DNA of 64,000 nt from Gordonia gummivorans (lineage in GTDB: Bacteria; Actinomycetota; Actinomycetes; Mycobacteriales; Mycobacteriaceae), in assembly GCF_022513585.1 (NCBI RefSeq), contig NZ_JAKWBF010000031.1, positions 1-64,000 of the forward strand, given 5' to 3'. This document shows positions 21,715 to 37,367 of this stretch, one piece after another. The notes beneath the pieces were generated by a model that had not been told where the DNA came from, did not search any database, and saw only the letters and a program-made list of their open reading frames with translations. The position numbers and the translations under genes were made by a program. Position 1 is the stretch's first letter; every line of letters begins with the position of its first letter.

Positions 21715-22218
21715 GTGGCGCCGACGACCGGGTCGGCCTTCGACCGCTCGCTGCGACTGTCCATCCGGCTGATCCCTTTTGTCGGGATCGCCGGCACCAT
21801 CATCTCGACCGTCGTCGATGTGCTCACTCCCGGTGGCCATTTCGGTGACGATCTGCTGGCCAACTCGATCCTCTGGATGATCGGCGTGCAGGGCTGGATG
21901 ACGGGCTGCGGACACATGTTCTTCGGCGAGCCGATCGCCGAATCCATCGGGTGGCCCGCCAAGACGCCGTGGCAGTGGGAGGTGGGACTCGCCAGTCTCG
22001 CGACCGGTGTGCTCGGCGTGATGGCGTCGGGTTTCGGCAAGGAGTTCTGGCTGGCCACCATCATCGCGTTCGCGGTGTTCTATCTGGGTGCAGCTGTCGG
22101 TCACGTGCGCGAGATGGTGGTGAATCGCAATTTCGCGCCGGGCAACGCCGGGCCGATCTTCTTCTTCGACGTCATCGTCCCGATCTATCTGATCGTCCTG
22201 TACGTGGTGGTCGTGTGA
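21715..22218 (+). CDS. DUF6790-like four-helix membrane protein
   Basis: A 167-residue membrane protein with four or five helices and conserved-looking polar residues: GWMTGCGHMFFGEPIAESIGWP, WEVGLASLATGVLG, VGHVREMVVNRNFAPGNAGP. This resembles a DUF6790-type family of unknown function; the name is from memory. The GTG at 21715 lies directly after the prpE stop, so translation is coupled. Its stop TGA at 22216 is also the first three bases of a non-coding repeat element. Confidence 0.75.
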   Translation: MAPTTGSAFDRSLRLSIRLIPFVGIAGTIISTVVDVLTPGGHFGDDLLANSILWMIGVQGWMTGCGHMFFGEPIAESIGWPAKTPWQWEVGLASLATGVLGVMASGFGKEFWLATIIAFAVFYLGAAVGHVREMVVNRNFAPGNAGPIFFFDVIVPIYLIVLYVVVV

Positions 22219-22280
22219 CTCGACGAGTGTGGTGACCAATCCGGCTGAGCTGGGGAAATGCGTCACCCCCAATACGCTCC

Positions 22281-22326
22281 CTGAGGCGCCAGCCGAGCCT
22301 CGAAGGGCGGGTGAGATGACGATGTC
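22281..22326. repeat. fragment of dispersed GC-rich hairpin repeat
   Basis: CTGAGGCGCCAGCCGAGCCT and CGAAGG are followed by GTGAGATGACGATGT, matching the left arm and centre of the family copy near 3.8 kb. It is nested inside the non-coding element. Confidence 0.6.
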
Positions 22327-22477
22327 AGCGTGCCACCGGGCCACTAAAAGTAGGGGAAGGTTCTTCCCCTACTTTCTGCCCCTGCTTGTTGAGTCGTCCG
22401 CGAGTAATTTCGCGGGGAGGACTCCAGGGGTAGGGGAAGAGTTTCTTCCCCTAGTTTTTGTGCGACCAAGCAGCCAA

Positions 22478-22523
22478 CGTTGTAGCAGAAGGTGCCGTGT
22501 ATGGGGCACTCTCTGCTACAACG
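22478..22523. repeat. long imperfect hairpin inside element copy 1
   Basis: CGTTGTAGCAG pairs perfectly with CTGCTACAACG. The stem continues inward with GGTGCC/GGGCAC-type pairs to an 8-nt loop, for about 18 paired positions in total. The loop has no T-tract, so it is not a typical terminator. Confidence 0.75.
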
Positions 22524-22777
22524 CTTTCCAATGACCCATTGGGGTGTCCGCCTTCGCGCGCCGGCGGACACTTCCCGCGGCCACGATCGCCGACTACGTC
22601 GCGGGTCAGTCGCTGACTCGACGAGTACTGGTCGTGTCGACCAGGGGCTGCGAGCAGATGTTCAGAAGCAGTGCGGGAGGTAGGACGACGGCACTCTTCC
22701 CACCTCCCGCACTCCATGGCCAGGGCCGCAGCGGTGAGGATCGGGACATCCACGCCTCCTCCCTGCTACCGTTGTCC

Positions 22778-22843
22778 ACGGTGATGGATCTCCACCGGGA
22801 GTGTGATTGCTCCGAACCGCCGACACGGCTGATGGCTCCTGTC
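22778..22843 (+). promoter_or_regulatory. fluoride riboswitch (crcB motif) aptamer
   Basis: The sequence follows the crcB-RNA pattern: P1 GGTG ... CACC enclosing ATGGATCTC, an optional small hairpin (GGGAG ... GCTCC), then GAACCGCC-GACAC-GGC and the highly conserved 3' part TGATGGCTCCTG. It sits directly before two fluoride-channel genes, which is where this riboswitch is expected. The loop-to-3' pseudoknot looks short (GGA with TCC), so the call rests mainly on the conserved 3' block and context. Confidence 0.78.
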
Positions 22844-22860
22844 CGAAATGACGGATAGGA
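22837..22860 (+). promoter_or_regulatory. expression-platform hairpin that hides the crcB ribosome-binding site
   Basis: TCCTGTCCG (22837-22845) pairs over nine positions, one of them G-U, with CGGATAGGA (22852-22860) around a 6-nt loop. The AGGA at the 3' end is the ribosome-binding site of the first crcB gene, 7 nt before its ATG. The 5' arm overlaps the conserved aptamer 3' end, so the two structures compete. The expected logic is that fluoride frees the ribosome-binding site. Confidence 0.7.
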
Positions 22861-22867
22861 CTGACGC

Positions 22868-23347
22868 ATGGCCGATCACGCAGCCGACTCGCACCCCGAA
22901 CTGCCACTCGATCCGGACAGTTCGCGCCCGCTTCATCTGCAGTGGCGGGCGATCGCACTCGTGTTTCTCGGTGGAATCGCCGGCACCGGATTGCGCTACC
23001 TGACCGAACACCTGTTTCCCGCATACGGCACGGACTGGCCATGGGCGACGTTCGGTGTCAACTTGAGTGGCGCGTTCATTCTCGGGGCGTTGCTTGAGGT
23101 GCTTGCCCTGGCAGGGCCCGACGACGGGTGGCGCCGCACCATTCGGGTGCTGGTCGGCACAGGTTTTTGCGGCTCGTACACCACCTATAGCTCGTTCGCT
23201 CTCGAGACGACGCAACTCGGTCACCATGGCGCGGTCGGGCTGGGAATCGCTTATGCGGCATCGAGCGTGGTGCTCGGGGTTGTGTGTGCATGGGCGGGAA
23301 TCGTTGTCGCCGGCCAACTCCTGCGCGGGCGAGGAGCGGTGTCGTGA
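22868..23347 (+). CDS. crcB: fluoride ion channel CrcB/Fluc, subunit 1
   Basis: A 159-residue membrane protein with four helices after a 40-residue polar N-terminus. Fluc hallmarks: GGIAGTGLRYL, the pore asparagine in FGVNLSGAF, and LVGTGFCGSYTTYSSFALET. It exports fluoride through a dimeric channel. Many actinobacteria encode two homologues that form a heterodimer, as here. The start ATG is preceded by AGGA inside the riboswitch hairpin. Its stop overlaps the start of the second subunit. Confidence 0.95.
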   Translation: MADHAADSHPELPLDPDSSRPLHLQWRAIALVFLGGIAGTGLRYLTEHLFPAYGTDWPWATFGVNLSGAFILGALLEVLALAGPDDGWRRTIRVLVGTGFCGSYTTYSSFALETTQLGHHGAVGLGIAYAASSVVLGVVCAWAGIVVAGQLLRGRGAVS

Positions 23348-23712
23348 CGGTTGCGCTGATCCTGCTGGCCGGCGCGGTGGGTTCGGTGGCACGGTTCGTG
23401 GTCGACGGCGCCGTGAAACAGTGGCGTCCGACGACGTTCCCCTGGGCGACGCTCGTCATCAACGTGACCGGTTCGCTGCTGCTCGGTGTTCTCGCCGGAC
23501 TGGTGATCTACCACGCCGCACCGTCGGACCTGCAGGCGATCCTCGGCACCGGATTCTGTGGCGGCTACACGACGTTCAGCACCGCGTCGGTCGAGACGAC
23601 GCGGCTCGCGCAACGCCGCGACGGCATGAGGGCATTGGCGAATGCGCTGGCGTCGGTGGTCGCATCGGTGGCCGCCTGCGCGGCCGGACTCGCCCTGGCG
23701 TGGGCGCTGTAG
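23344..23712 (+). CDS. crcB: fluoride ion channel CrcB/Fluc, subunit 2
   Basis: A 122-residue four-helix protein with GAVGSVARFVVDG, LVINVTGSLLLG and LGTGFCGGYTTFSTASVET, the same signatures as subunit 1. The GTG start overlaps the stop of the first subunit as GTGA, and the GAGGAG before it lies in the end of that gene. This is a coupled pair expected to fold as an antiparallel heterodimer in the membrane. Confidence 0.95.
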   Translation: MTVALILLAGAVGSVARFVVDGAVKQWRPTTFPWATLVINVTGSLLLGVLAGLVIYHAAPSDLQAILGTGFCGGYTTFSTASVETTRLAQRRDGMRALANALASVVASVAACAAGLALAWAL

Positions 23713-23723
23713 AGGAGTCAGAC

Positions 23724-24239
23724 ATGGCAGACGACAACACCTTCGGCCAATACGACGACAACGGTCCACTGCGCAGACACCGGCGCGGCCCCACCCCGGC
23801 CAAGCGCGCGCAGGCCGCATTGGTGATCGGGTGGAACCGCCAGCCCGACAGCGTTGCCGCCGTTCGATTCGCGGTGATGCTCGCCGACCGGCTCGACGTG
23901 CACATCCACCTCGTGCACATCGTCGACCTCGATGACGAGCCGCTCGACCCGGACGCGCCCGATTGGAGTGAGCAGTTCGCCGCGACCGCCGACGAGAATG
24001 CGCTGGAGGCCCGACGGCTGCTCGACGCCGTGCCGGCGTCGTGGACCTATCACAGCGGCCATGGATCGGCTCCCGACCTGCTCATCACGGTGGCCGACCG
24101 ATACTCGGCGCTGATGGTGGTGGTCGGGAACCCGCGTGGCGGGCTGATGTCGCACCTGGATGCGCTGCTGGGACAGTCCGTGGCGCACCGGGTGATCGGA
24201 CAACGCAAGGTGCCGGTGCTGTTGGTGCCTGCGGGCTGA
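23724..24239 (+). CDS. UspA-type universal stress protein
   Basis: A 171-residue single-domain protein: polar N-terminus, ALVIGWNRQPDSVAAVRFAV, VHIHLVHIVDLDDEP, then the ATP-loop-like VVVGNPRGGLMSHLDALLGQ followed by SVAHRVIGQRKVPVLLVP. The G-2x-G-9x-S pattern of ATP-binding Usp proteins is recognisable. GAGGAG precedes the ATG, and the gene follows the second channel gene by 11 bp. It is therefore probably under the same fluoride control, an unusual partner whose role in fluoride stress is unknown. Confidence 0.88.
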   Translation: MADDNTFGQYDDNGPLRRHRRGPTPAKRAQAALVIGWNRQPDSVAAVRFAVMLADRLDVHIHLVHIVDLDDEPLDPDAPDWSEQFAATADENALEARRLLDAVPASWTYHSGHGSAPDLLITVADRYSALMVVVGNPRGGLMSHLDALLGQSVAHRVIGQRKVPVLLVPAG

Positions 24240-24248
24240 GAACTTCAG

Positions 24249-24278
24249 CTCGCCAACGGCTTCGAGGCTCGCACCCAG
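24249..24278. repeat. fragment of dispersed GC-rich hairpin repeat
   Basis: CTCGCCAACGG is followed by CTTCGAGGCTCGCACC, the right arm of the family, just after the uspA stop. Confidence 0.6.
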
Positions 24279-24290
24279 CGGGGAGAAAGG

Positions 24291-24327
24291 GAAGTGGCAT
24301 GCCGGCCCTCTTCCGGCATGCCACTTC
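24291..24327. terminator. bidirectional hairpin terminator
   Basis: A perfect 15-bp stem (GAAGTGGCATGCCGG and its complement) with a 7-nt loop lies between convergent uspA and acyl-CoA dehydrogenase genes. There is no strong T-tract, but position and stem strength suggest termination on both strands. Confidence 0.75.
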
Positions 24328-24341
24328 TGCTCTGGCTCAGC

Positions 24342-25565
24342 TCACTTCAGCTCGGCGCTGCTCTTGTTGAGCACACGGCGGGCGATTATCAGCTGCTGGA
24401 TCTGCTGGGTGCCCTCGAAGATGTCGAGGATCTTGGAGTCGCGGGCCCACTTCTCCACCAGGAGACGTTCCGAGAAGCCCACGGTTCCGGTCAATTCGAC
24501 TGTCTTGTTGGTGATGTCGGTGCCGGTTCGGCCGGCCTTGGCCTTGGCCATCGACGCCTCGAGCGAGTTCGGCTGCTTGTTGTCGGCCATCCAGCAGGCG
24601 CGCATGGTGAGCAGATACGCTGCCTCCCAGTCGGATTCCATGCGGATGAACTCGGCGGCGGCGGCATGCTGGTCGGCGGCGGGGCGGTCGTAGTCGATCT
24701 CGATGCCGGCGTCCTCGAGGATGCGCCGCAGCTCTTCCAGAGCGGCACGCGCGACGCCCACGGCCATGCCCGCGACCAGCGGACGGGTGTTGTCGAAGGT
24801 CTGCATGACCCCGCCGAAGCCCTTCTTGGTGTCGACTTCGGGCGATCCCAGCAGGTTCTCCTTGGGGATGCGGCAGTTCTCGAACCGGATGACCGCGGTG
24901 TCGGAGACGCGGATGCCGAGCTTGTGCTCGAGCCGGACGACCTCGACCCCGGGATGCTCACGCGGCACGACGAAACTCTTGATGGCCGCACGGCCCAGGC
25001 TTTTGTCCACGGTCGCCCACACGACGATGTGCGTGGCGCGCGACCCCGCGGTGACGAAGATCTTCTCACCGTTGAGGACGTACTCGTCGCCGTCGAGCCG
25101 GGCCGTTGTGGTGACGGCCGCGGAGTCGGAGCCGAAGCTCGGTTCGGTGATGGCCATCGCGGCCCACACCTTGCCGAAGCGTTCGAGTTGCTCGTCGGTG
25201 GCGACCGCGGCGATCGCCGAGTTGCCCAGCCCCTGGTAGGGGATCGACAGCATGAGGCCGACGTCGCCCCACGAGGTTTCCATCACATTGACGACGGACT
25301 GCATGTTGCCGCCGTTGACGACAGTGCCCTCGGGTTTGGGCTTCGCTGTCTTCTCGCGGCTGCGGCCGGCGTCGGCACCGGCACCGGCCTGGCCGGTCTC
25401 GGACAGACCGTCGTACAGGCTGGCCAGAGTGTCGAGCTCCACCGGGTAGGCGTGCTCACGCAGGTCGTACTTGCGTGAGATCGGCCGGAAGATCTCGGCG
25501 GCGGCCTGATGGGCCTGGTCGATGGTGACGCCCAGCTTCTTGGGCAGTTCCAGATTGATGCTCAT
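24342..25565 (-). CDS. acyl-CoA dehydrogenase B
   Basis: A 407-residue flavoprotein of the acyl-CoA dehydrogenase family. FAD/substrate motifs AMAITEPSFGSDSAAVTTTA and KIFVTAGSRATH lie around residues 135-175. The C-terminal IFEGTQQIQQLIIARRVL contains the likely catalytic glutamate E384. It introduces an alpha,beta double bond into an acyl-CoA, passing electrons to ETF. It follows acyl-CoA dehydrogenase A by 28 bp, and the two may act together, possibly as a heteromer like the actinobacterial steroid-side-chain FadEs. The substrate is unknown. Confidence 0.92.
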   Translation of the reverse strand: MSINLELPKKLGVTIDQAHQAAAEIFRPISRKYDLREHAYPVELDTLASLYDGLSETGQAGAGADAGRSREKTAKPKPEGTVVNGGNMQSVVNVMETSWGDVGLMLSIPYQGLGNSAIAAVATDEQLERFGKVWAAMAITEPSFGSDSAAVTTTARLDGDEYVLNGEKIFVTAGSRATHIVVWATVDKSLGRAAIKSFVVPREHPGVEVVRLEHKLGIRVSDTAVIRFENCRIPKENLLGSPEVDTKKGFGGVMQTFDNTRPLVAGMAVGVARAALEELRRILEDAGIEIDYDRPAADQHAAAAEFIRMESDWEAAYLLTMRACWMADNKQPNSLEASMAKAKAGRTGTDITNKTVELTGTVGFSERLLVEKWARDSKILDIFEGTQQIQQLIIARRVLNKSSAELK

Positions 25566-25593
25566 TGCGATGCTCCTGAAGTCCGGTAGGTCG

Positions 25594-26958
25594 TCAGAGG
25601 ACGACGATGCCTTCGCCGATGCCCGCGCCACGCAGGTCGCGGTACCAGCGCTCGACCGGATGCTCCTTGGTGAAACCGTGGCCACCGAGCAACTGCACGC
25701 CGTCGAGGCCGATCTGCAGGCCCTTGTCGATGGTCAACTTGCGGGCCAGTGCGGCCTCGCGAGCAAACGACAGTCCCTGTTCGGCACGAGCCGCGCCACG
25801 CAGGGTGACAAGGCGGATCGAGTCGACCTCGGTCGCGATTGTGGCGACCATGAAGGCCACGGCCTGACGGTTGGAGATCGGCTCGCCGAAGGCCTCACGC
25901 TCGTTGACGTAGGGAATCACGTAGTCGAGGACGGCCTTGGCGGTGCCGGCAGCCAGCGCCGACCAGCCCAGACGCGAGAGCCGAACGACGTCGCGGTAGG
26001 CAGCAGCAGAGGACTCGCCCTCACCGATGAGAGCCGACGTCGGGACGGCGACATCCTGCAGGAGCAGACGGCCCATGCCTGCGGCACGCACGCCCATACC
26101 CGGATCGGCTTCGACGATCAGACCCTTCGAGTCGGATTCGACGATGAACAGCGCGGGCTTGCCCTCGAGTTGGGCGCCGACGATGAACAACTCCGACGAC
26201 CCGGCTGCCGGGACGAACGACTTCACACCATTGAGGCGGTAACCGCTGGGCACACGAGTTGCCTTGGTGGACAGGTTGAATGCGTCGAACAGTGGCTTCG
26301 GCTCGGCAATGACGACCGCGGACTGCGGGACGTTCTCGCCGGCGAAGTCGGGCAGGTAGGTGCGCTGCTGGTCGTCGCTTCCGAAGTTGGTGAGGGTGGT
26401 GGCCACGCCGCTCGGTGCGAGCAGCGGGATGGCCAGGCCCATGTCGCCGTACGCCATGGCCTCGGCGACCAGCGCGTTGGTCACGACGCCGCGTTCGGTG
26501 GCTGCGCCCTCGAGTTCCTCGGGCACGTTGATCATGGTGATGCCGAGTTCGGCCGATCGCTTGAGGATCTCCTCGGGTGCGGTCGCGGCGGCGTCGGCGT
26601 CGTAGGCGGCGGGACGCAGGATCTCGGTGGCGAACTCGCGCACCGTCTCCGCGATCATCTGCTGCTCGTCGTCGGGCGTGAGGTTGAAGTAGTCCTTGGG
26701 GGTGCTGGTGAGGCGCTTGGCCTTACCGGATCCGCCCTGGGCGGCCTTGAACGCACGGTTGGCGGCGCCGAGGGTCTGGAAGCCGGTCTTGGTGGCCTGG
26801 TAGGCGATGCGGTTGATCGGCTCGCGGATCTGGTACTTCTCGGCGAACTCCGAGCCGGTGACGGTGGTCAGTACGCGCATGGCGGTGCCGATGAAGTTGC
26901 GCGGGTGCTTGGTCTTTCCGACGGCGGAGGTGTCGCGCGGTTCGGTGTGGCTAGTCAT
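25594..26958 (-). CDS. acyl-CoA dehydrogenase A, C-terminally short
   Basis: A 454-residue acyl-CoA dehydrogenase family protein with an N-terminal extension of about 90 residues (PRNFIGTAMRVLTTVTG ... KDYFNLTPDDEQQMIAETVR). FAD-region sequence AVVIAEPKPLFDAF and FVPAAGSSELFIVGA differs from the usual EPxxGSD form. The chain ends GIGEGIVVL, only five residues after the glutamate that aligns with the catalytic position, so the usual C-terminal helix is missing. It may be a partner or structural subunit of dehydrogenase B. It is the first gene of the pair, and a strong compound palindrome lies upstream. Confidence 0.88.
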   Translation of the reverse strand: MTSHTEPRDTSAVGKTKHPRNFIGTAMRVLTTVTGSEFAEKYQIREPINRIAYQATKTGFQTLGAANRAFKAAQGGSGKAKRLTSTPKDYFNLTPDDEQQMIAETVREFATEILRPAAYDADAAATAPEEILKRSAELGITMINVPEELEGAATERGVVTNALVAEAMAYGDMGLAIPLLAPSGVATTLTNFGSDDQQRTYLPDFAGENVPQSAVVIAEPKPLFDAFNLSTKATRVPSGYRLNGVKSFVPAAGSSELFIVGAQLEGKPALFIVESDSKGLIVEADPGMGVRAAGMGRLLLQDVAVPTSALIGEGESSAAAYRDVVRLSRLGWSALAAGTAKAVLDYVIPYVNEREAFGEPISNRQAVAFMVATIATEVDSIRLVTLRGAARAEQGLSFAREAALARKLTIDKGLQIGLDGVQLLGGHGFTKEHPVERWYRDLRGAGIGEGIVVL

Positions 26959-27016
26959 GTTCACCAGCTGTTCTCGGGGAGGATCCCGGTTGGCGTGAGG
27001 GTTTGATCGCACCGAT

Positions 27017-27058
27017 CTTACTCGGTAGTAAGTACGTACCTTACTACTCGGTAAGTAG
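27017..27058. promoter_or_regulatory. compound palindromic operator upstream of the dehydrogenases
   Basis: Two TACTCGGTA cores are seen: CTTACTCGGTAGTAAG (27017-27032, 6-bp arms) and CTTACTACTCGGTAAGTAG (27040-27058). Between them GTAGTAAG and CTTACTAC (27025-27047) form another inverted repeat. This is typical of two bound TetR-type dimers. It stands out as AT-rich in GC-rich DNA. No regulator gene is adjacent. Confidence 0.8.
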
Positions 27059-27134
27059 CTTGTCACGTTCTTCTTGGATGCCTGTCACACGGTTGATCGA
27101 TGACGACGGGCACCGGCCTGGCTACGCTGGTCGG

Positions 27135-27635
27135 GTGACGTCCGAACCACGCGCCGACCAGGGTCTTCAGGATGCCGCGGTGGCCACCGCCGAGCCGGGT
27201 CGCGCCTTGTCCAGTGTGAGCCTGGCCGGAGCAGCCACCGTCGCTGGGGTCGGGATCGCCGGGATCGCGGTCGCATGCGCGTGGTCGCCCGCGGGCGCGT
27301 CGTCGGGTCCCGAGGTGTGCCCGTTCCGCCGGCTCACCGGACTCCCATGTCCCGGCTGCGGGCTGACCCGCAGCTGGGTGTCGTTGATGCACGGTGACGT
27401 GTCGAACGCATTCTCGTTCAATCTGTTCGGCCCGCTGCTGCTCGTGTTGACGGCGGTGGCCGTCGTGATCGCGCTCTGGTCGCTGGTGTTGCGCGATGGT
27501 GCGCCACTCGATCGGACCCGGTCGTGGTTGAGCGTCCGCGTGGTCGTGGGCTTTGTTGCGGTCTGGCTCGGCTACGGGGTGTTCCGTGCCGTCGACACCG
27601 CGGCCGGATGGGGAATCTTCCCGATCATCACGTGA
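27135..27635 (+). CDS. DUF2752 membrane protein
   Basis: A 166-residue protein with a hydrophobic N-terminal helix, the DUF2752 signature CPFRRLTGLPCPGCGLTRS (residues 62-80), then two or three further helices. Members of this family have unknown function. The Cys-rich motif lies at a membrane edge and could bind metal or act in thiol chemistry. The GTG is chosen since the sequence before it reads across the operator. It is divergent from the acyl-CoA dehydrogenase operon. Confidence 0.87.
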   Translation: MTSEPRADQGLQDAAVATAEPGRALSSVSLAGAATVAGVGIAGIAVACAWSPAGASSGPEVCPFRRLTGLPCPGCGLTRSWVSLMHGDVSNAFSFNLFGPLLLVLTAVAVVIALWSLVLRDGAPLDRTRSWLSVRVVVGFVAVWLGYGVFRAVDTAAGWGIFPIIT

Positions 27636-27666
27636 CACCACCGGGAGTCGGGAGCACAGTGGTGGC

Positions 27667-28326
27667 ATGCAGATCACTCATTTCGGCCATTCCTGCCTGC
27701 TCGTCGAACTCGACGGAACCCGAGTGCTCTTCGACCCGGGCAACTTCTCTCACGGCTTCGAGGGCATCACCGGGCTCGACGCGATCCTGATCACCCACCA
27801 GCATCCCGACCATTGCGACGTCGCACGGCTGCCCGACCTCGTCGCAGCCAATCCCGACGCTGCCCGCTTCGCCGATCCGCAGACCACGGCTCAGCTCAAC
27901 GGCGACGACGTCGCCGGCGAATGGACGGCGGCGCACAGTGGTACGAGCGTGCAGGTCGGGAGCGTCACGGCGCGCGTCACCGGCGGCCGGCACGCCGTCA
28001 TCCATCCGGAGATCCCGGTGATCGACAACGTCGCTTACATCCTGGGCACCGATGCCGAACCGGCGAAGTTCATGCACCCCGGTGACTCCTTCTACATCCC
28101 CTTCGAGAAGATCGACGTCCTCGCGCTGCCCGCTGCCGCGCCATGGATGAAGCTCAGCGAGTCCGTCGACTACCTTCGGGGGGTTGCGCCGCGCGTCGCG
28201 GTGCCGATCCACCAGGCCGTCCAATCCGAGGCCGGCATCGCCGTGCACAACTCTCGATTGCAGGAGATGCGGAACCCGGCCACCGACTTCCGGGTGCTCG
28301 ACGCGGAGAACGGCGTCGACCTCTGA
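27667..28326 (+). CDS. metallo-beta-lactamase-fold hydrolase
   Basis: A 219-residue protein of the UlaG/Zn-dependent hydrolase-like MBL branch. MQITHFGHSCLLVELDGTRV at the start is followed by the metal motif HQHPDH (H44, H46, D48, H49), GGRHAVIHPEIP and HPGDSF, and a late VPIHQAV. It probably binds two metals; the substrate is unknown. It starts 31 bp after the DUF2752 stop. Its TGA stop forms the first bases of a non-coding repeat element. Confidence 0.9.
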   Translation: MQITHFGHSCLLVELDGTRVLFDPGNFSHGFEGITGLDAILITHQHPDHCDVARLPDLVAANPDAARFADPQTTAQLNGDDVAGEWTAAHSGTSVQVGSVTARVTGGRHAVIHPEIPVIDNVAYILGTDAEPAKFMHPGDSFYIPFEKIDVLALPAAAPWMKLSESVDYLRGVAPRVAVPIHQAVQSEAGIAVHNSRLQEMRNPATDFRVLDAENGVDL

Positions 28327-28465
28327 TCCGAAGAGTACTGCCTTCGGCCTCCTGAACTGCGGAAATCTGTACCTGGGAGCCCAGTCAAATGCAGAGTGCA
28401 CGTGGTCTGGCTGGGGCGTACAGAGATCCGACGCAGTCGGCGGGTGGGTCGCTGACTCGGAGAGT
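28324..28465. repeat. non-coding element, copy 2 (short)
   Basis: A 142-bp interval between TGATCCGAAGAGT (28324) and TGACTCGGAGAGT (28453). It contains CTGAACTGCGGAAATC at 28352, matching the internal block of the copies at 22.2 and 36.9 kb. The bases following the left motif, TGCCTTCGGCCTCCTGAACTG, recur almost unchanged at 37.37 kb. It starts on the stop codon of the MBL gene. No gene is visible in it. Confidence 0.65.
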
Positions 28466-28475
28466 CGGGTGTTGC

Positions 28476-28874
28476 TCACGCGGGCGGTGCGAAGAACTCC
28501 AACGCGATGTTGTCGGGATCGCGGAAGGAGATCCCGGAGCCGTAGTGCGCGTGCTTGACGCCACTGTGGGAGATTCCCTGCGCATCCAGGCGCGCGATCC
28601 AACCGTCGAGATCGGCCTGCGAGCAGGCGAACGCGATGTGATCGAGACCGGTGCGACTCTCGTCAAAGCCGTCCGCCGAACCCGGGCGAGTGTGGGTGTG
28701 CAGGCCAAAGAGCATGCCGTCGCCCAGTGCGAAGACGGTGTGGTGGAAGTCGCCCGACTCCTCGTCCTCGTCGAGGACCGGGTCGGCGTCGAAGAGTTGG
28801 GCGTACCACTTGGTGCTGGCCGAGAGGTCTGAGACGGTGATGGCCACATGGGCGAGGCCGGGAAATGTTGCCAT
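28476..28874 (-). CDS. VOC/glyoxalase-superfamily protein
   Basis: A 132-residue protein with two beta-alpha-beta-beta-beta units: LAHVAITVSDLSASTKWYAQLF and GLDHIAFACSQADLDGWIARL. Metal-ligand candidates are H9, H65-like FGLHTH and the C-terminal E in DPDNIALEFFAPP. VOC proteins include glyoxalases, dioxygenases and resistance proteins, so the reaction cannot be named. It stands alone on the minus strand between the repeat element and the phosphatase gene. Confidence 0.88.
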   Translation of the reverse strand: MATFPGLAHVAITVSDLSASTKWYAQLFDADPVLDEDEESGDFHHTVFALGDGMLFGLHTHTRPGSADGFDESRTGLDHIAFACSQADLDGWIARLDAQGISHSGVKHAHYGSGISFRDPDNIALEFFAPPA

Positions 28875-29000
28875 GGTCGGACTCCCTTGTCCGTGGGGGT
28901 ACTGACCCATCAGACGCTAGGTCCGCCATGACGACGGCGTGTTGACATCGACGCGGGACTGTCCGTCCGGCCAGGCCGATATGGCCAGACGGCGTGGTGG

Positions 29001-29801: not shown

Positions 29802-29863
29802 CCGGGTAGCTTAGTTCCCCGCCTCGGCGCCGTCGCAAATGTCGGATCGGTACGCTGGCTGCC

Positions 29864-30259
29864 ATGTGGCTCGCGGTGGCGTTCAGTTTCCTGTTGGCGG
29901 CACTCGTGGTGGTGATGATCGTGCAATGGCAGCGGGGTCGTAACCCGCGGCCGCTGACGCCAGGCCAGGCCGCGAACTATGTGCAGGGCACCTTCACGAT
30001 CACCGGCGTCAGCGATCGGCCCGACGAGGGCGACAAAAACGGCGAACGGTTCGCCACGATATCGGGCACCATCGTCGGACCCGAGACCAATCCCACCGAG
30101 GTGTACGGCACTCTCGTGCTCGGAACCACCGATCGGTGGCCCGCGATCGGCGACGACATTTCCGTTCTCTACAAGCCGCACAAGGCTGCGACGTCGTGGC
30201 GCTTCGGTGATCTGGGGCAGGCGGGTCCGCCGCCGGGCGGTTCCTCCTTCGGCGATTGA
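29864..30259 (+). CDS. small membrane-anchored protein, DUF3592-like
   Basis: A 131-residue protein with one N-terminal helix (residues 2-22) and a soluble domain: YVQGTFTITGVSDRPDEGDK, ATISGTIVGPETNP, PAIGDDISVLYKP and a Gly/Pro-rich end. The beta-rich domain resembles DUF3592 proteins; this is tentative. It lies between hisN (divergent) and prfB, 35 bp before the latter. Confidence 0.72.
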   Translation: MWLAVAFSFLLAALVVVMIVQWQRGRNPRPLTPGQAANYVQGTFTITGVSDRPDEGDKNGERFATISGTIVGPETNPTEVYGTLVLGTTDRWPAIGDDISVLYKPHKAATSWRFGDLGQAGPPPGGSSFGD

Positions 30260-30294
30260 ACGGCCCGGGAATCCGGTCGGTATCCTGGTAAACC

Positions 30295-31410
30295 GTGCAT
30301 CCCGACGTAACCGCAGATCTCGAATCCCTCGACGCCACCTTGACGACGGTCGAGAAAGTCCTCGACCTCGACGAGCTGCGTCGCCGGATCGACGAGCTCG
30401 AGATGCAGGCCTCCGACCCCGACCTCTGGAACGACCAGGAGCACGCGCAGAAGGTGACCAGCGAGTTGTCGCATGCGCAGTCGGAGTTCCGGAAGGTATC
30501 TGAACTGCGGCAACGTCTCGACGATCTGCCCGTTCTGTACGAGCTCGCCGACGCCGAGGAGGGCGACGACCGCACCGCCGCGCTGGCTGACGCCGACAAC
30601 GACCGCACCACCCTGCGCACCGACATCGAGGCGATGGAGGTCAAGACCATGCTGGCCGGCGAGTACGACTCGCGTGACGCGCTGGTCAACATCCGCTCGG
30701 GCGCGGGTGGTGTCGACGCCGCCGACTGGGCACAGATGCTGATGCGCATGTACGTGCGCTGGGCCGAACAGCACGGGTACGGGGTCGAGGTCTACGACAC
30801 CTCCTACGCCGAGGAGGCCGGTCTCAAGAGTGCGACGTTCGCCGTGAAAGCCCCCTACATGTACGGCACGTTGTCGGTGGAGCAGGGCACCCATCGGCTC
30901 GTCCGAATCAGCCCGTTCGACAACCAGAGCCGCCGCCAGACGTCGTTCGCCGAGGTCGAGGTGTTGCCGGTGGTCGAGACCACCGACCACATCGACGTCG
31001 ACGAGAACGACGTGAAGGTCGACGTGTACCGGTCGTCGGGGCCCGGTGGTCAGTCGGTCAACACCACCGACTCGGCGGTGCGGCTCACGCACATCCCGAC
31101 CGGGATCGTGGTCACCTGCCAGAACGAGAAGAGCCAGTTGCAGAACAAGGCGTCGGCGATGCGGGTGCTGCAGGCCAAGCTGCTCGAACGGAAACGACTG
31201 GAAGAGCGCGCCGAGCTCGATGCGCTCAAGGGAGACGGCGGATCGAGTTGGGGCAACCAGATGCGCTCGTACGTGCTGCACCCGTATCAGATGGTGAAGG
31301 ATCTGCGCACCGGCGTCGAAGACAACAACCCGTCGGCAGTGCTCGACGGTGAGCTGGACAAGTTCATCGAAGCCGGCATCCGATGGCGGATGGCCGATGC
31401 AGAGGCCTGA
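30295..31410 (+). CDS. prfB: peptide chain release factor 2
   Basis: A 371-residue class-I release factor. The stop-codon recognition motif SPF lies near residues 206-208, and the catalytic GGQ at 251-253 in [23 protein letters not shown], not PxT, identifies RF2, which reads UGA and UAA. The start is GTG, giving [10 protein letters not shown]. No in-frame stop or CTTTGA-type frameshift site is present near codon 25, so there is no autoregulatory frameshift as in E. coli. It begins the conserved translation/division cluster that runs through ftsEX to smpB. Confidence 0.98.
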
Positions 31411-32350
31411 GCTGAACATCGCAATTCTCGGCCCGGAGTCCGAGTCCATCATCGGCCGCTTCTACGTGTGGCTGGTCACCGACGGGCTCGAAATCCTGCT
31501 GTGGATTCTCGCTGCGGCAATCGTGATCCGCTTCATACGGTGGAATGCCGACCGCTACGGCGCGCGCGTCGAGGACGAGTTCCAGGACAGTGACCAGATC
31601 GTTCGGACCGAGCGCACCAAGCACATGCGTGCGGTCGTTCAGGTAGTCAGCTGGGTGTTCATCGTGATCGTGGCGCTCATCTGCGGTGTGCACATCATGG
31701 GCGTCTTCAACATCCCGATCACCGGACTGGTCGGGCCGGGCGCGGTGCTCGGTGCGGCGCTCGGTTTCGGCGCGCAACGCGTGGTCCAGGATCTTCTCGC
31801 CGGATTCTTCGTGGTCACCGAGAAGCAATACGGCTACGGCGACGTCGTCAGCCTGATGGTCACGGGCGGGGGATTCGCCGACGGCACCGTCGAGGACGTC
31901 ACACTGCGCGTGACAAAACTGCGCACCAGCGACGGCGAGATGGTCACGGTTCCGAACGGCCAGATCATCAAGGCAACCAACCTGTCCAAGGATTGGGCAC
32001 GCGCGGTGGTGGACGTCCCGATCCCGGCCGAGGCCGACATCGGTCGTGTCAACGACATTCTCGAAGAGGTCGGGCAGGAGTTCTTCGACGATCCTCGGAT
32101 GCACCGCCTCATGCTCGACGCGCCGACTCCGCTCGGGGTCATCGACCTCGAGCTCGAGGCGATCACGGTGCGGATGGTGGCCCGGACCCTCCCGGGCAAG
32201 CAGTTCGAGATCGCCCGCGCGCTGCGCATCCTCATCGTGCGGAGATTGGCGGCCGAAGGCATCACCGTCGCGCTCGGCCGCGAAGTGCAAGCTCAGTCCG
32301 CGCCCCCGGCCACTCTCCAGCCGAGCGGAGGTGACCGCGGCGATGACTGA
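31397..32350 (+). CDS. MscS-family mechanosensitive channel
   Basis: A 317-residue protein with three or four membrane helices. The pore helix and following beta domain are typical of Msc[29 protein letters not shown], then YGYGDVV and [27 protein letters not shown]. It should open under membrane tension to release solutes. The ATG overlaps the end of prfB by 14 bp. The order prfB, this gene, small membrane protein, ftsE, ftsX, smpB matches the mycobacterial Rv3105c-Rv3100c region as I recall it. Confidence 0.93.
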
Positions 32351-32840
32351 GAAAGACCCGGCCAGCGGAACCGATCCCGAAGACAAGGGCAAATCCGGTC
32401 CAACCACCACGGGGTCGTTGCGGGCCCAGCGCGCCCAAAGCAGTTCCGGATGGTTTCGCAAGCGCGACTGGGGTCATATCCGCGGGACCCGAGTGCGGAC
32501 GAGCACCGCAGTGCTGGTGATCGCCTTCATCGCGCTGTTGTGGGTGTACGGGTACACCTCGCAGCGCTACGGCGTGGTGGATCAGACGACGCAGGCACCG
32601 GCACCGCGCACCACCCAGCAGACCTACGAGACCACGCGTAGTTCGACGCCGAGTTCGTCGTCGGCCTCGAGCACCTCGGTGAGCGCTACGGTGGGCGCGT
32701 CGGAGAGCAGTTCGGATTCCAACGCGCCCGCACCCGCACCCGGGGTGACCACAACCACGACGTCGATCCCCGGAATCCCCTTCCAGATCCCGGTTCCAGG
32801 ACTGAACGGCACGACTCAGACCACGTCACCGGCCCGCTGA
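32343..32840 (+). CDS. membrane-anchored Ser/Thr/Pro-rich protein
   Basis: A 165-residue protein with a polar N-terminal 50 residues, one helix ([20 protein letters not shown]), then a low-complexity outside tail rich in Ser, Thr, Ala and Pro ([20 protein letters not shown] and onward) ending near [11 protein letters not shown]. It has the place and shape of the proline-rich protein that precedes ftsE in mycobacteria. The function is unknown; a link to the FtsEX complex is suggested by position only. It overlaps the mscS stop by 8 bp. Confidence 0.8.
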
Positions 32841-32864
32841 AACGCAGTTGAAACGCCCCGGGCA

Positions 32865-32885
32865 GCCTGAGCGGAGCTCTCAGGC
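32865..32885 (+). other. small hairpin before ftsE
   Basis: GCCTGAG and CTCAGGC pair around a 7-nt loop in the 67-bp gap before ftsE. No T-tract follows, so it may be an attenuator or simply a structured leader. Confidence 0.45.
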
Positions 32886-32907
32886 GTCGTGGTTACACTG
32901 GCTTCTC

Positions 32908-33594
32908 GTGATCACGCTGGAGAACGTCACGATGCAGTACAAGGCCTCCAGTCGGCCGGCTCTCAAGGACTTGAGCCTGGAGGTCGACAAGGGGGAGTTC
33001 GCCTTCCTCATCGGGCCGTCGGGTTCGGGCAAGTCGACATTCTTCCGACTGCTGCTCAAGGAGGACAAGCCCACCTCGGGCGAGATCCACCTGGGCGAAT
33101 TCCACGTGAACCGCCTGCGCGGTCGGATGGTGCCCAAACTGCGCCAATCCATCGGATGCGTCTTCCAGGACTTCCGGTTGCTGCAGCAGAAGACGGTCGC
33201 CGAGAACGTCGCCTTCGCCCTCGAGGTGATCGGGCGGCCGCAGTCGACGATCAAGCGCGTGGTGCCCGAGGTCCTGGAGTATGTCGGCCTCGAGGGCAAA
33301 CACGACCGCATGCCCAACGAACTGTCGGGTGGTGAGATGCAGCGTGTCGCCATCGCGCGCGCCATCGTCAACCGGCCGCTGGTTCTGCTGGCCGATGAGC
33401 CGACCGGCAACCTCGACCCCGAGACCAGCGAGGAGATCGTCGACGTCCTCGACCGCGTGAACCGACGCGGGACGACCGTGGTGATGGCCACGCACGACCG
33501 CCACATCGTCGACGCGATGCGTCGGCGGGTGCTCGAATTCGACAACGGGCGATTGGTCCGCAACGACCCGCAGGGTGTGTACGGCATCGGCTGA
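32908..33594 (+). CDS. ftsE: cell-division ABC ATPase FtsE
   Basis: A 228-residue ATPase. Walker [10 protein letters not shown] is near residue 36, the Q-loop is in [10 protein letters not shown], the signature [15 protein letters not shown] near 140, and Walker [15 protein letters not shown] follows. FtsE with FtsX couples ATP use to activation of peptidoglycan hydrolases at the septum. The GTG start giving [11 protein letters not shown] is the conserved FtsE N-terminus; upstream in-frame residues are not conserved. It is followed by ftsX after 60 bp. Confidence 0.97.
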
Positions 33595-33654
33595 CCCAGC
33601 CGCGTAGTAGACCGCCGCACAGACACCACCGACCAGAAGGACATCTCAGCGAGC

Positions 33655-34563
33655 ATGCGAGCCAACTTCATCATCAGCGAGGTCTTGAACGGGTTGCGTC
33701 GCAACCTCACGATGACCATCGCGATGATCTTGACGACCGCAATCACCCTCGGCATGTTCGGCGGTGGTCTGCTGGTGATCCAGATGGCCGACAAGAGCCA
33801 GAAGATCTTCCTCGACCGCGTCGAAATGGAGTTCTACCTCAACGACGCCGTCACCGACCGTGACCCGCTCTGCCAGCAGGCGCCATGCGCGACGCTGCGT
33901 ACCGACCTCGAGAAGGAATCCGGCGTGAGCGCCGTGACCTACGTCGATCGCGAGGACGCCTACAAGCGGGCCAAGGAGATCTTCAAGAACAACCCCGACC
34001 TCGCCGACAACATCCGCGAGGGCACGCTGCAGGCCTCCATGCGAGTGCGCGTCACCGACCCGGACAACTTCAACACGATCGCCGAGAAGTATCGGGCCCG
34101 CACCGACCTGGGCGTCGAATCGTTCCGCGACGACCGAAAACTCGTCGAACGAATATTCAACGTGCTCGACGGCGCGCGCAACGCTACCTTCGCCATCGCC
34201 GCAGTCCTGGCCATCGCGGCGATCCTCCTGATCATCAACACCGTCCAGATCGCCGCGTACACGAGACGGACCGAGGTGTCGATCATGCGTCTGGTCGGCG
34301 CGACCCGGTGGTACACGCAGCTGCCGTTCCTGCTCGAGGCGGTGGTCGCGGCGCTGATCGGTGCCCTGCTCGCGATCGGCGGCCTGTTCGCGGCGAAGAG
34401 ATTCTTCTTCGACAACGCGCTACGAGATCTGTACGGTGTGAGCTTCTTGTCGCGCATCGAGAACACCGACGTTCTCTTCGTCGCCCCGTGGTTGTTGCTG
34501 GGGGGAATTGTGTTGGCAAGCGTGACGTCATATGTGACGCTGCGTGTCTACGTTCGCGAGTAA
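33655..34563 (+). CDS. ftsX: cell-division membrane protein FtsX
   Basis: A 302-residue protein with four helices. The first (TMTIAMILTTAITLGMFGGG) is followed by a large extracellular loop with C78- and C83-like cysteines in DPLCQQAPCATL, which may form a disulfide as in mycobacterial FtsX. Three C-terminal helices come next, with the conserved EVSIMRLVGATRWYTQLPFLLEA stretch. It partners FtsE and signals to a cell-wall hydrolase outside. AGGACATCTC precedes the ATG. Confidence 0.96.
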   Translation: MRANFIISEVLNGLRRNLTMTIAMILTTAITLGMFGGGLLVIQMADKSQKIFLDRVEMEFYLNDAVTDRDPLCQQAPCATLRTDLEKESGVSAVTYVDREDAYKRAKEIFKNNPDLADNIREGTLQASMRVRVTDPDNFNTIAEKYRARTDLGVESFRDDRKLVERIFNVLDGARNATFAIAAVLAIAAILLIINTVQIAAYTRRTEVSIMRLVGATRWYTQLPFLLEAVVAALIGALLAIGGLFAAKRFFFDNALRDLYGVSFLSRIENTDVLFVAPWLLLGGIVLASVTSYVTLRVYVRE

Positions 34564-34580
34564 GACCGACCTTCCGCTTC

Positions 34581-34610
34581 CTGAGGTGCGAAGCGAAGCG
34601 AGCCTCGAAG
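34581..34610. repeat. short copy of dispersed GC-rich hairpin repeat
   Basis: CTGAGGTGCGAAGCGAAGCG followed by AGCCTCGAAG, the left arm of the family with a variant centre, lies between ftsX and smpB. Confidence 0.7.
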
Positions 34611-34644
34611 GAGCGGCGACAGAACCACAAGAGAGGAGAGCGAC

Positions 34645-35118
34645 GTGCCCAAGGAAAAGGGCCGCGCGGCGATTGCCACCAATCGCAAGGCGCGACACGA
34701 CTACTCGATTCTCGATGTGTACGAAGCCGGAATCGCGCTGGTCGGTACCGAGGTGAAGAGCCTGCGTGCCGGCAAGGCCTCGCTGGTGGACGCCTTCGCG
34801 ACCATCGACGACGGCGAGATCTGGCTGCACGCGCTGCACATCCCGGAGTACACCAACGGGTCGTGGACCAACCACCCTGTGCGTCGCAAGCGCAAACTGC
34901 TGCTGCATCGTCGTGAGATCGACACCTTGATCGGCAAGATCCGGGACGGGAACCTGACGCTGGTGCCGTTGTCGATGTACTTCAGCGACGGTCGGGTGAA
35001 GGTCGAGCTCGCATTGGCCCGCGGTAAGCAGGCCCACGACAAACGTCAGGACATCGCGAAGCGCACCGCGCAGCGCGAGGTCGAACGGGAAATTGGCCGT
35101 CGGGTCAAGGGGATGTGA
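34645..35118 (+). CDS. smpB: tmRNA-binding protein SmpB
   Basis: A 157-residue protein with the SmpB core: [75 protein letters not shown] and a basic tail. It carries tmRNA into stalled ribosomes. The GTG start has GAGAGGAG 8-9 nt before it. Its partner ssrA lies 1.3 kb downstream, separated by a glycoside hydrolase gene. Its stop overlaps that hydrolase's GTG start by 4 bp. Confidence 0.98.
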
Positions 35119-36368
35119 TCGTCCGCCGGCTGGTCGGGGTGATCGGTGCAGCAGTTCTGGCATTGGCCGTCGCAGGCTGTGGCGACGAGCCGGGCCGGCT
35201 GGGTGGCGATCCACCGGCGATTTCGGGTCTGCCAACGACGCCGCCGATGGGCTGGAACAGCTGGAACACCTTCGGTTGCGGTGTCACCGAGGCCGACGTC
35301 CGCGCCCAGGCCGACGCACTGGTCTCGACCGGTCTGCGCGATGCCGGCTACCGCTATGTGGTGATCGACGACTGTTGGTCGGCAACCGCCCGCGACGCGC
35401 AGGGACGCCTGGTCGCCGACCCGGATCGGTTCCCGTCCGGCATGGCCGCCATGGGTACCTATCTGCATGGGCGGGGTCTCAAGTTCGGGGTCTATTCGGG
35501 TGCGTCGGAGCAGACCTGCACGCAGCTGCTCGGCAACCGGGCAGGGTCGACGGGGAGTCTCGGCCATGAACAGACCGATGCGCAGACGTTCGCCGGATGG
35601 GGCGTGGACTACCTGAAATACGACTGGTGCTCGACCGACGCCGACCACGACAAGCAGGTGACCGCATTCACCGCGATGCGCGACGCGCTGCGCTCGACCA
35701 ACCGCCCGATCGTCTACAACATCAATCCCAACAGCGGTCTGACCGGGGGAGTCGTGCCGGGAGCCCAGTACGACTGGGGCGGGGTCGCGACCATGACGCG
35801 ACTGTCGAACAACGTGGTCGGCGCGTGGCAGACCTCGGCAGGACCAGCAGGTCAGCAGGGCATCGTCGACGAGATCGACGCGGCGGTACCGCTGACCGGT
35901 CGCGTCGGGCAGGGTGCTTTTCTCGACCCCGACGCACTCGTCGTCGGATCGTCGGGGCTGACGCCGGCTATGGGTCGTACCCAGATGGCCATGTGGTCGA
36001 TGTTGGCCGCGCCCCTGATCGCGAGCAACGACCTCACCACGATGAGCCCCGATACCCTGAGCACCCTGCGCAACGCTGCGGTGATCGCAGTCGATCAGGA
36101 CAAGGTGGTCGGCGCAGGCTCACCGGTGAACGACGATCCGGAGATATGGAAGCGGGCGGTCGACGGTGGCGCGGTGGTGTCACTGACGAATCGCCAGAAT
36201 CATCCGCGGGCGATGTCGGTTCGGCTTTCGACCCTCGGACTGCCTGCGGGTGAACACTTGGTCAATCTGTGGACCGGGCAGCAGGTGCCGGTGCGCGATG
36301 GCTGGGTGTCGGTGCTGGTCGCGGCACGCGACACCATGCTCCTGAGCGCTGTTCGAGCACCGGAATGA
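35115..36368 (+). CDS. GH27 family alpha-galactosidase-like lipoprotein
   Basis: A 417-residue secreted lipoprotein. The signal sequence ends in lipobox LAVAGC with C22. The catalytic domain begins [16 protein letters not shown] and has VVIDDCWS. The likely nucleophile D170 lies in YLKYDWC, and the acid/base is in [10 protein letters not shown] (residues 269-278). A beta-sandwich C-terminal domain ends the chain. GH27 enzymes cleave alpha-galactosides or related sugars. The gene's GTG overlaps the smpB stop, so an exported glycosidase is translationally coupled to a ribosome-rescue factor. The substrate may be a cell-wall or environmental polysaccharide. Confidence 0.88.
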
Positions 36369-36369
36369 A

Positions 36370-36398
36370 TTGGCTTGCACACGTTGTTAGACTTAAGT
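36370..36398 (+). promoter_or_regulatory. possible ssrA promoter
   Basis: TTGGCT (36370-36375), a 17-bp spacer and TTAAGT (36393-36398) lie about 30 bp before the mature tmRNA 5' end. An alternative -10 is TAGACT at 36388. The call is weak by eye. Confidence 0.35.
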
Positions 36399-36427
36399 GC
36401 TCATCGAAACTCGATGGGTGCTATCTC

Positions 36428-36798
36428 GGGGCTGATCGGTTTCGACTACGTGCGTCGAGGTAGGGGAAGCGTGTCGGTGCAGGCTGGAGACCACCGTGAG
36501 CGTCGCAGCAACCAATTAAGCGCCGATTCCAATCAGCGCGACTACGCCCTCGCTGCCTGATCAGCGACGGCTAGTCTGTCGGCCCGGATTGAGTTCCCGA
36601 ATCCGGATGCCGGCATCATCTCAGGGGACTCACCGTGTTCGCCGGTCGCGGGCGGACGCGGGACAGCAAACAGCGACTGGGATCGTCATCTCGGCTTGTT
36701 CGTGTGACCGAGAGATCCAAGTAGAGACATAGCGGACTGCACACGGAGAAGCCCTACCAACACGACGGAGGACCCGGGTTCAATTCCCGGCAGCTCCA
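36428..36798 (+). ncRNA. ssrA: tmRNA
   Basis: The 5' end GGGGCTGATCGGTTTCGACT pairs with the 3' end CAGCTCC-A to give a tRNA-like acceptor stem; the T arm is GGGTTCAATTCCC. The tag reading frame starts at GCC (36522) and ends at TGA (36558-36560), encoding ADSNQRDYALAA. The final YALAA is the usual protease signal. The CCA end is not encoded: the sequence after the discriminator A is CGA. About 371 nt. It works with SmpB encoded upstream to rescue stalled ribosomes. Confidence 0.95.
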
Positions 36799-36801
36799 CG
36801 A

Positions 36802-36839
36802 AAAAGTCCCTGACCTGAAACACTGGGTCAGGGACTTTT
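36802..36839 (+). terminator. rho-independent terminator of ssrA
   Basis: A 14-bp perfect stem (AAAAGTCCCTGACC and its complement) with a 10-nt loop ends in TTTT. It starts 4 nt after the tmRNA. Confidence 0.92.
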
Positions 36840-37078
36840 CATGTACACGGCGCAGTTCCATTCCTGACTCGAAGAGTTGGTGACCGACCCCGCTGACCTG
36901 CGGAAATGTCGCGGTATCTTACCCGCAAAATCTCGGGGAAGAGTTTCTTCCCCTACTTTTTGTGGCGGATCGCGCCCGACGACATGGGATCGATCCCCAC
37001 CGCTGGCACCCATGGCAGCCACGTGGTCGGCCGGCCCCTCCGCTCGACGACGACACTCTGTGTCCTGTTGGAGAATCT

Positions 37079-37094
37079 GTGTGCTGCAGCACAC
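37079..37094. repeat. 16-bp perfect palindrome in element copy 3
   Basis: GTGTGCTGCAGCACAC. The flanks GTTGGAGAA on the left resemble those of the larger palindrome at 37211, so the two are diverged copies. Confidence 0.8.
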
Positions 37095-37210
37095 GGTTGA
37101 GACTCGGCACAGGGTGTGGTCTGAGGCCACCCATGGCACATCACCCCGGGGCGGCCTCGGCTTCGGTCTGGCCACGTCCCGCGTCGTCCTGCGAGAACTC
37201 GAGTTGAGTT

Positions 37211-37244
37211 GGAGAACGCGAGTGCTGCAGCACTCGCGTTCTCC
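37211..37244. repeat. 34-bp perfect palindrome in element copy 3
   Basis: GGAGAACGCGAGTGCTG is followed immediately by its exact reverse complement, with no spacer. It could form a cruciform or act as a strong protein-binding site. Confidence 0.95.
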
Positions 37245-37367
37245 TATTCGGCTCCGGTTGTCGCGGGTGCCGGCCGCGCGGAGGCTCCGGGCCGCATGGG
37301 CGGCCCCGTTCTTCCGGGCTCCACGATCGCCGACGACGTCGGCGGGTGGGGCGCTGATCCGAAGAGT

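Follow-up and report, generated by a model that had tools for sequence, protein, structure and literature searches.

A family of gene-less mobile DNA units restricted to one Gordonia species, most likely non-autonomous derivatives of an IS110-family insertion sequence

In a stretch of 64,000 nucleotides from Gordonia gummivorans (contig NZ_JAKWBF010000031.1, positions 1 to 64,000, hereafter the window), we analyzed a set of intergenic DNA units that share a 13-bp motif, and we found them to be members of a gene-less mobile DNA family with at least 150 copies in this one Gordonia species. Four of these copies (units 1 to 4) are located in the window. The units are likely to be non-autonomous derivatives of an insertion sequence (IS) of the IS110 family, which would be moved in trans by the recombinase and the guide RNA of that element. 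An earlier note on this DNA had suggested either a non-autonomous mobile element or a conserved RNA element. The first suggestion agrees with the dispersed multi-copy distribution of the family, the empty orthologous sites, the fixed ends, the variable interior, and the lack of any gene inside the units. The second suggestion, a conserved host RNA, is unsupported, although many units carry terminator-like hairpins.

The genome of this organism (G000) comprises 5.3 Mb in 111 contigs; C-numbers below denote its contigs, while G014 and G038 are other Gordonia genomes. By merging 60 stretches of G000 with the earlier loci, we obtained 96 segments (452 kb), on which profiles of the left and right unit ends were built. 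These segments contain 119 left-end and 89 right-end profile matches at E<1e-3. In the whole G000 genome, there are at least 150 left-end and at least 77 right-end model matches, which together form 132 clusters. The motif itself has 100 exact copies genome-wide, compared to none for the reversed pattern; within the window alone, the 13-mer allowing two mismatches shows no excess over chance (15 found, 18.5 expected). The palindromic character ascribed to the motif in the earlier note applies to 31 of the 100 genomic copies, which read TGACTCGA(A/C)GAGT, whereas 56 copies have the non-palindromic form TGATCCGA(A/C/G)GAGT.

The family appears to be confined to G000. Each of the 58 other Gordonia genomes and 42 further relatives has between 0 and 10 copies of the 13-mer. 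The 77 right-end matches in G000 score 61-99 bits, versus at most 35.2 bits in the other 58 Gordonia; at E<=0.01, weak right-end matches appear in 46 of these 58 genomes, the E-values of the model being rough. The region of the best foreign right-end match, in G014, contains no 13-mer. Under stricter filters, G000 alone among 397 genomes of the order passes E<=1e-6, and a 752-base DNA query against 201 genomes has matches of any notable length in G000 only, with matches of up to about 90 bases in 21 others. Inspection of 13-mers in other Gordonia (nine single sites in nine genomes, and four of the ten copies in G038) revealed no unit, and the remaining six G038 copies are one IS end, which is described below. 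We found no family match in phage and plasmid sequences or in IMG/VR. The nearest congeners of G000 are 86% identical at smpB, and all nine named loci that encode a relative of the gene preceding unit 1 come from Gordonia.

Empty sites, which the earlier note had proposed to look for in sister strains, were found in relatives at four orthologous positions. The sites of units 1 and 2 are empty in all nine named Gordonia, as judged by eye from the printed stretches. For two further insertions, next to a gene on C13 and next to polA, we compared 30 loci out of 59 matching genomes. The C13 site is empty in 29 of the 29 relatives shown, of which 22 share the TGA; the polA site is likewise empty in all 29, each with the TGA in place. 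When flanks were joined to search for empty sites at paralogous positions, most of the matches were of arrays to themselves, and no clear empty site emerged.

The units follow one layout: the left end TGAYYCGAVGAGT, about 20 bp, and CTGAMCTGSGGAAAT, then a variable interior, and finally the right end CTTCCCGCCTCCACGATC, a hairpin, and GGGTGGGTCGCTGA. The 79 units that could be followed from left to right range from 86 to 687 bp, 13 of them being exactly 341 bp long. Their interiors are mosaic, with a GGGGAAG..CTTCCCC hairpin in 55 of the 79 and other modules in 4-19 units each. Twenty-one copies, with identities of 0.71-0.96 between pairs (median 0.88), make up the best-defined subfamily, which includes a version of a CTGAGGTGC..CTCGAAGGG repeat that is also present, as seen by eye, in other Gordonia. 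A dispersed repeat GCTCCCTGAGGTGCGAGG..CTCGAAGGG recurs at several Gordonia loci (L067, L156) and in one G000 unit subfamily. Among the 77 right ends listed, a left end is located 177-698 bp upstream of 54, the nearest left end lies 17-81 kb away for seven, and 16 have none; thus no left/right pair spaced 0.7-17 kb apart, as an autonomous copy with both ends would be, occurs among the matches listed. Strict terminal inverted repeats are absent from the units, the two ends differing in sequence. Three right ends (C46:183013-183062, C22:82530-82581, and C32:21127-21177) precede a sequence that they have in common, CATTTGCCC(T/C)GGTCACGACGCCACC, and that looks like a left-end module in inverted orientation. 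In addition, two units (C57:198678-198981 and C46:242478-242610) are interrupted, at contig ends, by one and the same other sequence, GTCGGAATT.., which is probably another insertion sequence. The longer of the two runs on into AATTTGTCAACCTG..GAGACAGG, and similar sequence ends contigs of G038 (L284, L286).

The units occur singly or head-to-tail, and at an array junction the CTGA of one right end is directly followed by the YYCGAVGAGT of the next unit. Thus the motif seen at right ends is mostly this CTGA junction plus the left end of the next unit or a flank resembling it. In 66 outer left flanks, CTGA alone is conserved (C in 59, T in 65, G in 64, and A in 66); the T, G, and A counts are partly fixed by the anchoring of the end, while the C is independent of it. 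Of 39 lone right ends, eight with left-like sequence behind them were excluded beforehand; in the remaining 31, CTGA is followed by YYCG in 21 cases, compared to 246 of 3,364 CTGA sites in the fetched DNA. An array on C17 sits exactly between CGCTCCCTGA and GGTGC, and the uninterrupted CTCCCTGAGGTGC occurs seven times in the fetched DNA. The sequence CTCCCTGATCCGAASGAAC, which may be a natural target, is present in other Gordonia at two of the loci read. CTCCCTGATCCGAA(C/G)GAAC follows genes in two other Gordonia (L067, L155); it is near the unit junction sequence, with no unit at these places. Family-wide, as in the motif copy at 28324-28336, the YY bases are nearly always TC or CT. The YY pairs at the left and right of one unit are independent of each other (23 of 62 equal, 22.7 expected), and therefore nothing points to target duplication; a duplication of the 13-mer upon insertion is not supported.

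A gene is joined to the unit left end at two places in the genome. At contig ends of C16 and C65, a gene is immediately followed at its 3' end by the 46-bp left end, read on the other strand; the gene product terminates in NVAYIE(H/R)GPDYYQRRNPERTMRNAVRALESLGLDVTITPR, with a frame difference at the very end in C65. The 87-residue fragment from C65 matches the last positions of NCBIfam NF033542, the IS110 family RNA-guided transposase (E 7.5e-6, 25.3 bits). In a tblastn search, this fragment matched annotated IS110 transposases in 67 plasmid records. None of these reached 60% identity, and the best matches were to transposases of the ISArsp3 family (47.6% over 84 residues, E 1e-16). Over 209 bp, the C16 and C65 copies show 97% identity to each other. 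Unit 1 agrees with this IS110 end at 40 of the first 46 positions.

The same terminus was found in a second genome. In G038, an identical 123-base sequence that starts with TGATCCGAAGAGTTCGGTGA is present at six contig ends. It follows GGTCCC in five cases and GATCCC in one, with intact TCCCTGAGGAGCG repeats just upstream in three of the six. Its first 20 bases equal those of at least nine G000 left ends. Besides the terminus, 37 bp of the 123-base sequence align with the G000 IS end at 78% identity (E 2.6e-4). By eye, a reading of its opposite strand can be made to end in IEPRDVA, compared to TITPREVA in G000. Beside this G038 IS, GGTCCCTGAGGAGCG has a role like that of the dispersed Gordonia repeat in the unit subfamily.

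The joined gene could alternatively belong to an IS110 element that was inserted beside or into an older repeat family and took over its end, the units themselves having been spread by a lost recombinase with a site like CTGAYYCGA. The arrays and the hairpin at one end recall integron cassette arrays, both G000 IS copies abut a unit right end, and the right end of the IS is a putative one, all of which suits this explanation. We nevertheless regard it as improbable, given that six places in G038 show this 20-bp terminus on an independent IS, with no unit in the 90 bases shown upstream, and that the two G000 copies share the spacing between the transposase gene and the end. Moreover, in three of four related IS110 loci on plasmids, the transposase stop codon is followed, as judged by eye, by TCACC(T)AATTTTC, which is similar to TCACCTAACTCTTCG in G000.

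The right end is predicted to form a hairpin that is held by compensatory changes. Across the family, 96.0% of the alignment cells in the stem are paired, and there are 57 double changes versus 21.0 in shuffles, with none of 500 shuffles as high; these double changes are confined to two of the seven pairs, and by the number of varying pairs or of pair types the stem is not above shuffles. For the left end, no structure was predicted. A hairpin located 10 nt before the terminal CTGA, together with the lack of terminal inverted repeats, is also the layout of single-strand (HUH) elements of the IS200/IS605, IS91, or Helitron-like types, in which the unit would start right after a short target and be moved by a Y1 or Y2 enzyme. 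The Helraiser element is similar in having a hairpin 11 nt from its 3' end, a TC start after A, a CTAG end, and head-to-tail circles, as described in the available part of PMC4778049. However, a search for the Y1 transposase (PF01797) gave no match in G000, while five of 14 control genomes were positive; the corresponding Y2 search (PF04986), negative in G000 and likewise in every control genome, carries no weight either way. A derivative of IS200/IS605 was rejected, as there is no Y1 transposase and the hairpin at the right end has no predicted counterpart at the left. With the left end joined to an IS110 gene instead, we find an HUH origin in general hard to credit.

Under the IS110 reading, the left end in the orientation used here would be the IS end downstream of the transposase gene, and the right end (the hairpin, then GGGTGGGTCGCTGA) would be the other IS end. 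The recombinase and the bridge or seek RNA of an autonomous IS would excise the unit as a circle in which its two ends abut, with GTCGCTGA next to YYCGAVGAGT. This circle would then be inserted after CTGA, preferably before YYCG, without target duplication. Read in the direction of the IS, insertion would take place at TCAG, with TCGRRTCAG as the preferred target, which has seven bases plus AG on one side and little on the other; for IS621, the accessible portion of PMC11208160 describes target guides of nine bases on the left and four on the right, each of which includes the core. Because the end of the unit itself resembles the target, new units would land against old ones and so produce head-to-tail arrays. 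These arrays show the junction expected of abutted ends, but they are not themselves circles. Insertions within genes would be lost, whereas those in spacers and at stop codons would remain. The interior modules, including terminator hairpins, other palindromes, and a piece resembling the genus-wide dispersed repeat, would be cargo.

This mechanism draws on what is known about IS110 elements. Terminal inverted repeats and target duplication are stated to be absent from IS110 elements in the part of PMC8450116 at hand, which also reports an AG direct repeat for ISPpu9; neither feature was seen in the units, which speaks for the IS110 reading. According to the section of PMC11208160 consulted, a 22-bp IS621 donor works when the RNA is supplied in trans, and the IS621 circle has a promoter across its joined ends. 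For ISEc11, which is of the IS1111 type, the excerpt of PMC11187229 describes that cargo between the ends moves with transposase and RNA in trans, without extra target bases. From this biochemistry, a gene-less unit with both ends would be a sufficient substrate.

Several observations weigh against the IS110 reading. The IS is known here from the 3' end of its transposase gene and the adjoining terminus, and we infer the match of the unit right end to it. The transposase evidence is a C-terminal fragment, in which the catalytic residues of an IS110-type (DEDD) transposase were not seen and which scores 25.3 bits versus a full-length cut-off of 140; the 43-residue C16 fragment had no family match, and Pfam gave nothing meaningful for the C65 fragment. 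The unit-end profiles found nothing significant in the four related plasmid loci (best E 0.24), and guide-like stretches were not clearly enriched inside the units. The V base of the left and right motifs agrees in 38 of 62 units, compared to 31.8 expected (p 0.006), which the model does not explain. Finally, the activity of the family is a prediction from its sequences.

As a tentative extension, one IS110 guide RNA may have spread more than one hundred gene-less mini-donors mobilized in trans, whose own target-like end would make their arrays self-seeding. Under this proposal, the cargo kept in the population would be terminators of host genes, and some interior modules may hold guide RNAs. 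Bridge-RNA recombination, by which DNA can be inserted in a programmable manner, derives from IS110 elements. In the laboratory, ends-only DNA has been shown to be able to move with protein and RNA in trans, and the family suggests that this occurs naturally on a large scale. It would offer more than one hundred natural insertion places for reading donor ends, target rules, and mismatch tolerance, and would present a case of an RNA-guided mobile family that gives host genes stop codons and possibly terminators.

Stop codons of upstream genes coincide with 24 of the 66 outer left ends. Our first estimates pointed to an excess (33 of 85 left ends at coding-like stops versus 3.0% of all TGA, and 24 of 63 versus 11.5%), with controls taken from fetched segments that are rich in unit DNA and have incomplete calls of open reading frames (ORFs). 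In the control based on the 64-kb window, 24 of 85-87 harmless CTGA sites (28%) are stop codons, against which 24 of 63 is no clear excess (p 0.07-0.09). Stop-codon targeting as a mechanism was therefore dropped, and a CTGA target combined with the loss of gene-breaking insertions is enough to account for the stop-codon positions.

A terminator-like hairpin followed by a T tract is present in 53 of the 79 units in the unit orientation and in 26 of 79 in the other orientation, compared to 0-3 in five mononucleotide shuffles and none in 231 windows of flanking DNA. A unit located at a stop codon has the same direction as the gene and would end that transcript, and we predict that such units terminate host transcripts. 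The abundance of terminator-like sites and the stop-codon positions could also mean that the units persist as domesticated terminators or mRNA 3' ends, their dispersal being secondary. This possibility seems very remote to us, considering the absence of clear enrichment over the window control, the 26 of 79 units that lack a terminator-like site in their own orientation, and the restriction to one species and the arrays, which look parasitic.

All four units in the window lie on the forward strand. The earlier note had described the first three as intervals with the motif at both ends and shared internal blocks, and this description was borne out with small corrections. Unit 1 (22216..22626, 411 bp) has its left-end match at 22216-22264 (E 4e-9) and its right-end match at 22568-22626 (E 9e-13); the upstream 253-aa ORF has its stop codon in this unit, the TGA at 22216-22218. 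Sequence, position, and fold prediction delineate within it a palindrome, GTAGGGGAAGGTTCTTCCCCTAC, at 22350..22372 and a terminator-like hairpin, TAGGGGAAGAGTTTCTTCCCCTA, followed by a T tract, at 22431..22459. The right end at 22568..22626, defined by the profile, includes the CTGA junction and has a degenerate hairpin. Unit 2 (28324..28465, 142 bp) matches the profiles at 28324-28369 (left, E 6e-12) and 28428-28465 (right, E 4e-6), and it provides, with the TGA at 28324-28326, the stop codon for the upstream 257-aa ORF. Its right end is without the left part of the hairpin. The motif, which the earlier note had assigned to both ends of each interval, has one mismatch in its right copy in unit 2 (28453-28465, TGACTCGGAGAGT).

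Unit 3 (36865..37367, 503 bp; left match 36865-36909, E 2e-11; right match 37309-37367, E 2e-15) is located in the spacer downstream of the gene for transfer-messenger RNA (tmRNA, 36428-36799). By sequence, position, and predicted fold, it has a terminator-like hairpin with a T tract, GGGGAAGAGTTTCTTCCCC, at 36935..36961. It also contains a 34-bp perfect palindrome with a predicted fold, GGAGAACGCGAGTGCTGCAGCACTCGCGTTCTCC, at 37211..37244, a module whose core is present in eight of the 79 units, and the predicted covarying right-end hairpin, GCCGACGACGTCGGC, at 37329..37343, the covariation coming from the family. Unit 4 (37355..37480, the end coordinate being approximate) is a decayed copy with a left match at 37355-37392 (E 3e-9). 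Its left end adjoins unit 3 on the right, beginning inside the right motif of the latter at 37355, and the right-end profile finds no right end in it. An Rfam scan of the window identified the tmRNA, two tRNAs, and a fluoride riboswitch, with no match at the gathering score inside any unit. The fluoride riboswitch (RF01734, 43.1 bits) is located at 22771-22848, just downstream of unit 1 and ahead of two ORFs, which we take to be crcB-like from the Rfam name.

Our search of the open-licence literature found neither an IS110-type miniature family nor such a Gordonia repeat, and the parts of six papers mentioning IS110 that were available (PMC9769881, PMC11578231, PMC3189936, PMC3718332, PMC3852290, and PMC8450116) contained nothing on miniature IS110 elements. 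The units are similar to bacterial miniature inverted-repeat transposable elements (MITEs) in being short, gene-less, and numerous, and in having an end in common with an IS from their own genome. A MITE in the strict sense is flanked by target duplications and has terminal inverted repeats; this class was rejected for the units, whose ends differ and show no duplication at YY. The mycobacterial interspersed repetitive units (MIRU), from the same order of bacteria, are intergenic and are said to sit at gene junctions containing TGA, but they differ from the units in size and tandem structure. The BOX elements of Streptococcus pneumoniae seem closest in style, being composite repeats of modular build, 67-637 bp in length, from which an upstream gene often takes its stop codon, as the available part of PMC3049150 describes; judged by the same description, their boxA, boxB, and boxC ends and modules set them apart. 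The Helitron, IS91, and IS200/IS605 elements are comparable in the hairpin near one end, the short one-sided target, and the lack of terminal inverted repeats, and they differ from the units, whose left end belongs to IS110 and whose genome yielded no Y1 enzyme. The IS110 elements with a bridge or seek RNA (IS621, ISPpu9, and the ISArsp3 family, the nearest annotated one) share with the units a transposase, here a fragment, joined to the left end, the lack of terminal inverted repeats and of visible target duplication, insertion in one orientation after a short sequence, and insertion into dispersed repeats. In contrast to these elements, the units are gene-less, 86-687 bp long, present in at least 150 copies, arranged in arrays, and variable and terminator-rich in their interiors. 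By their partner gene and target behavior, and with a putative right end and guide RNA, the units are most likely to be classified under IS110 as its non-autonomous derivatives.

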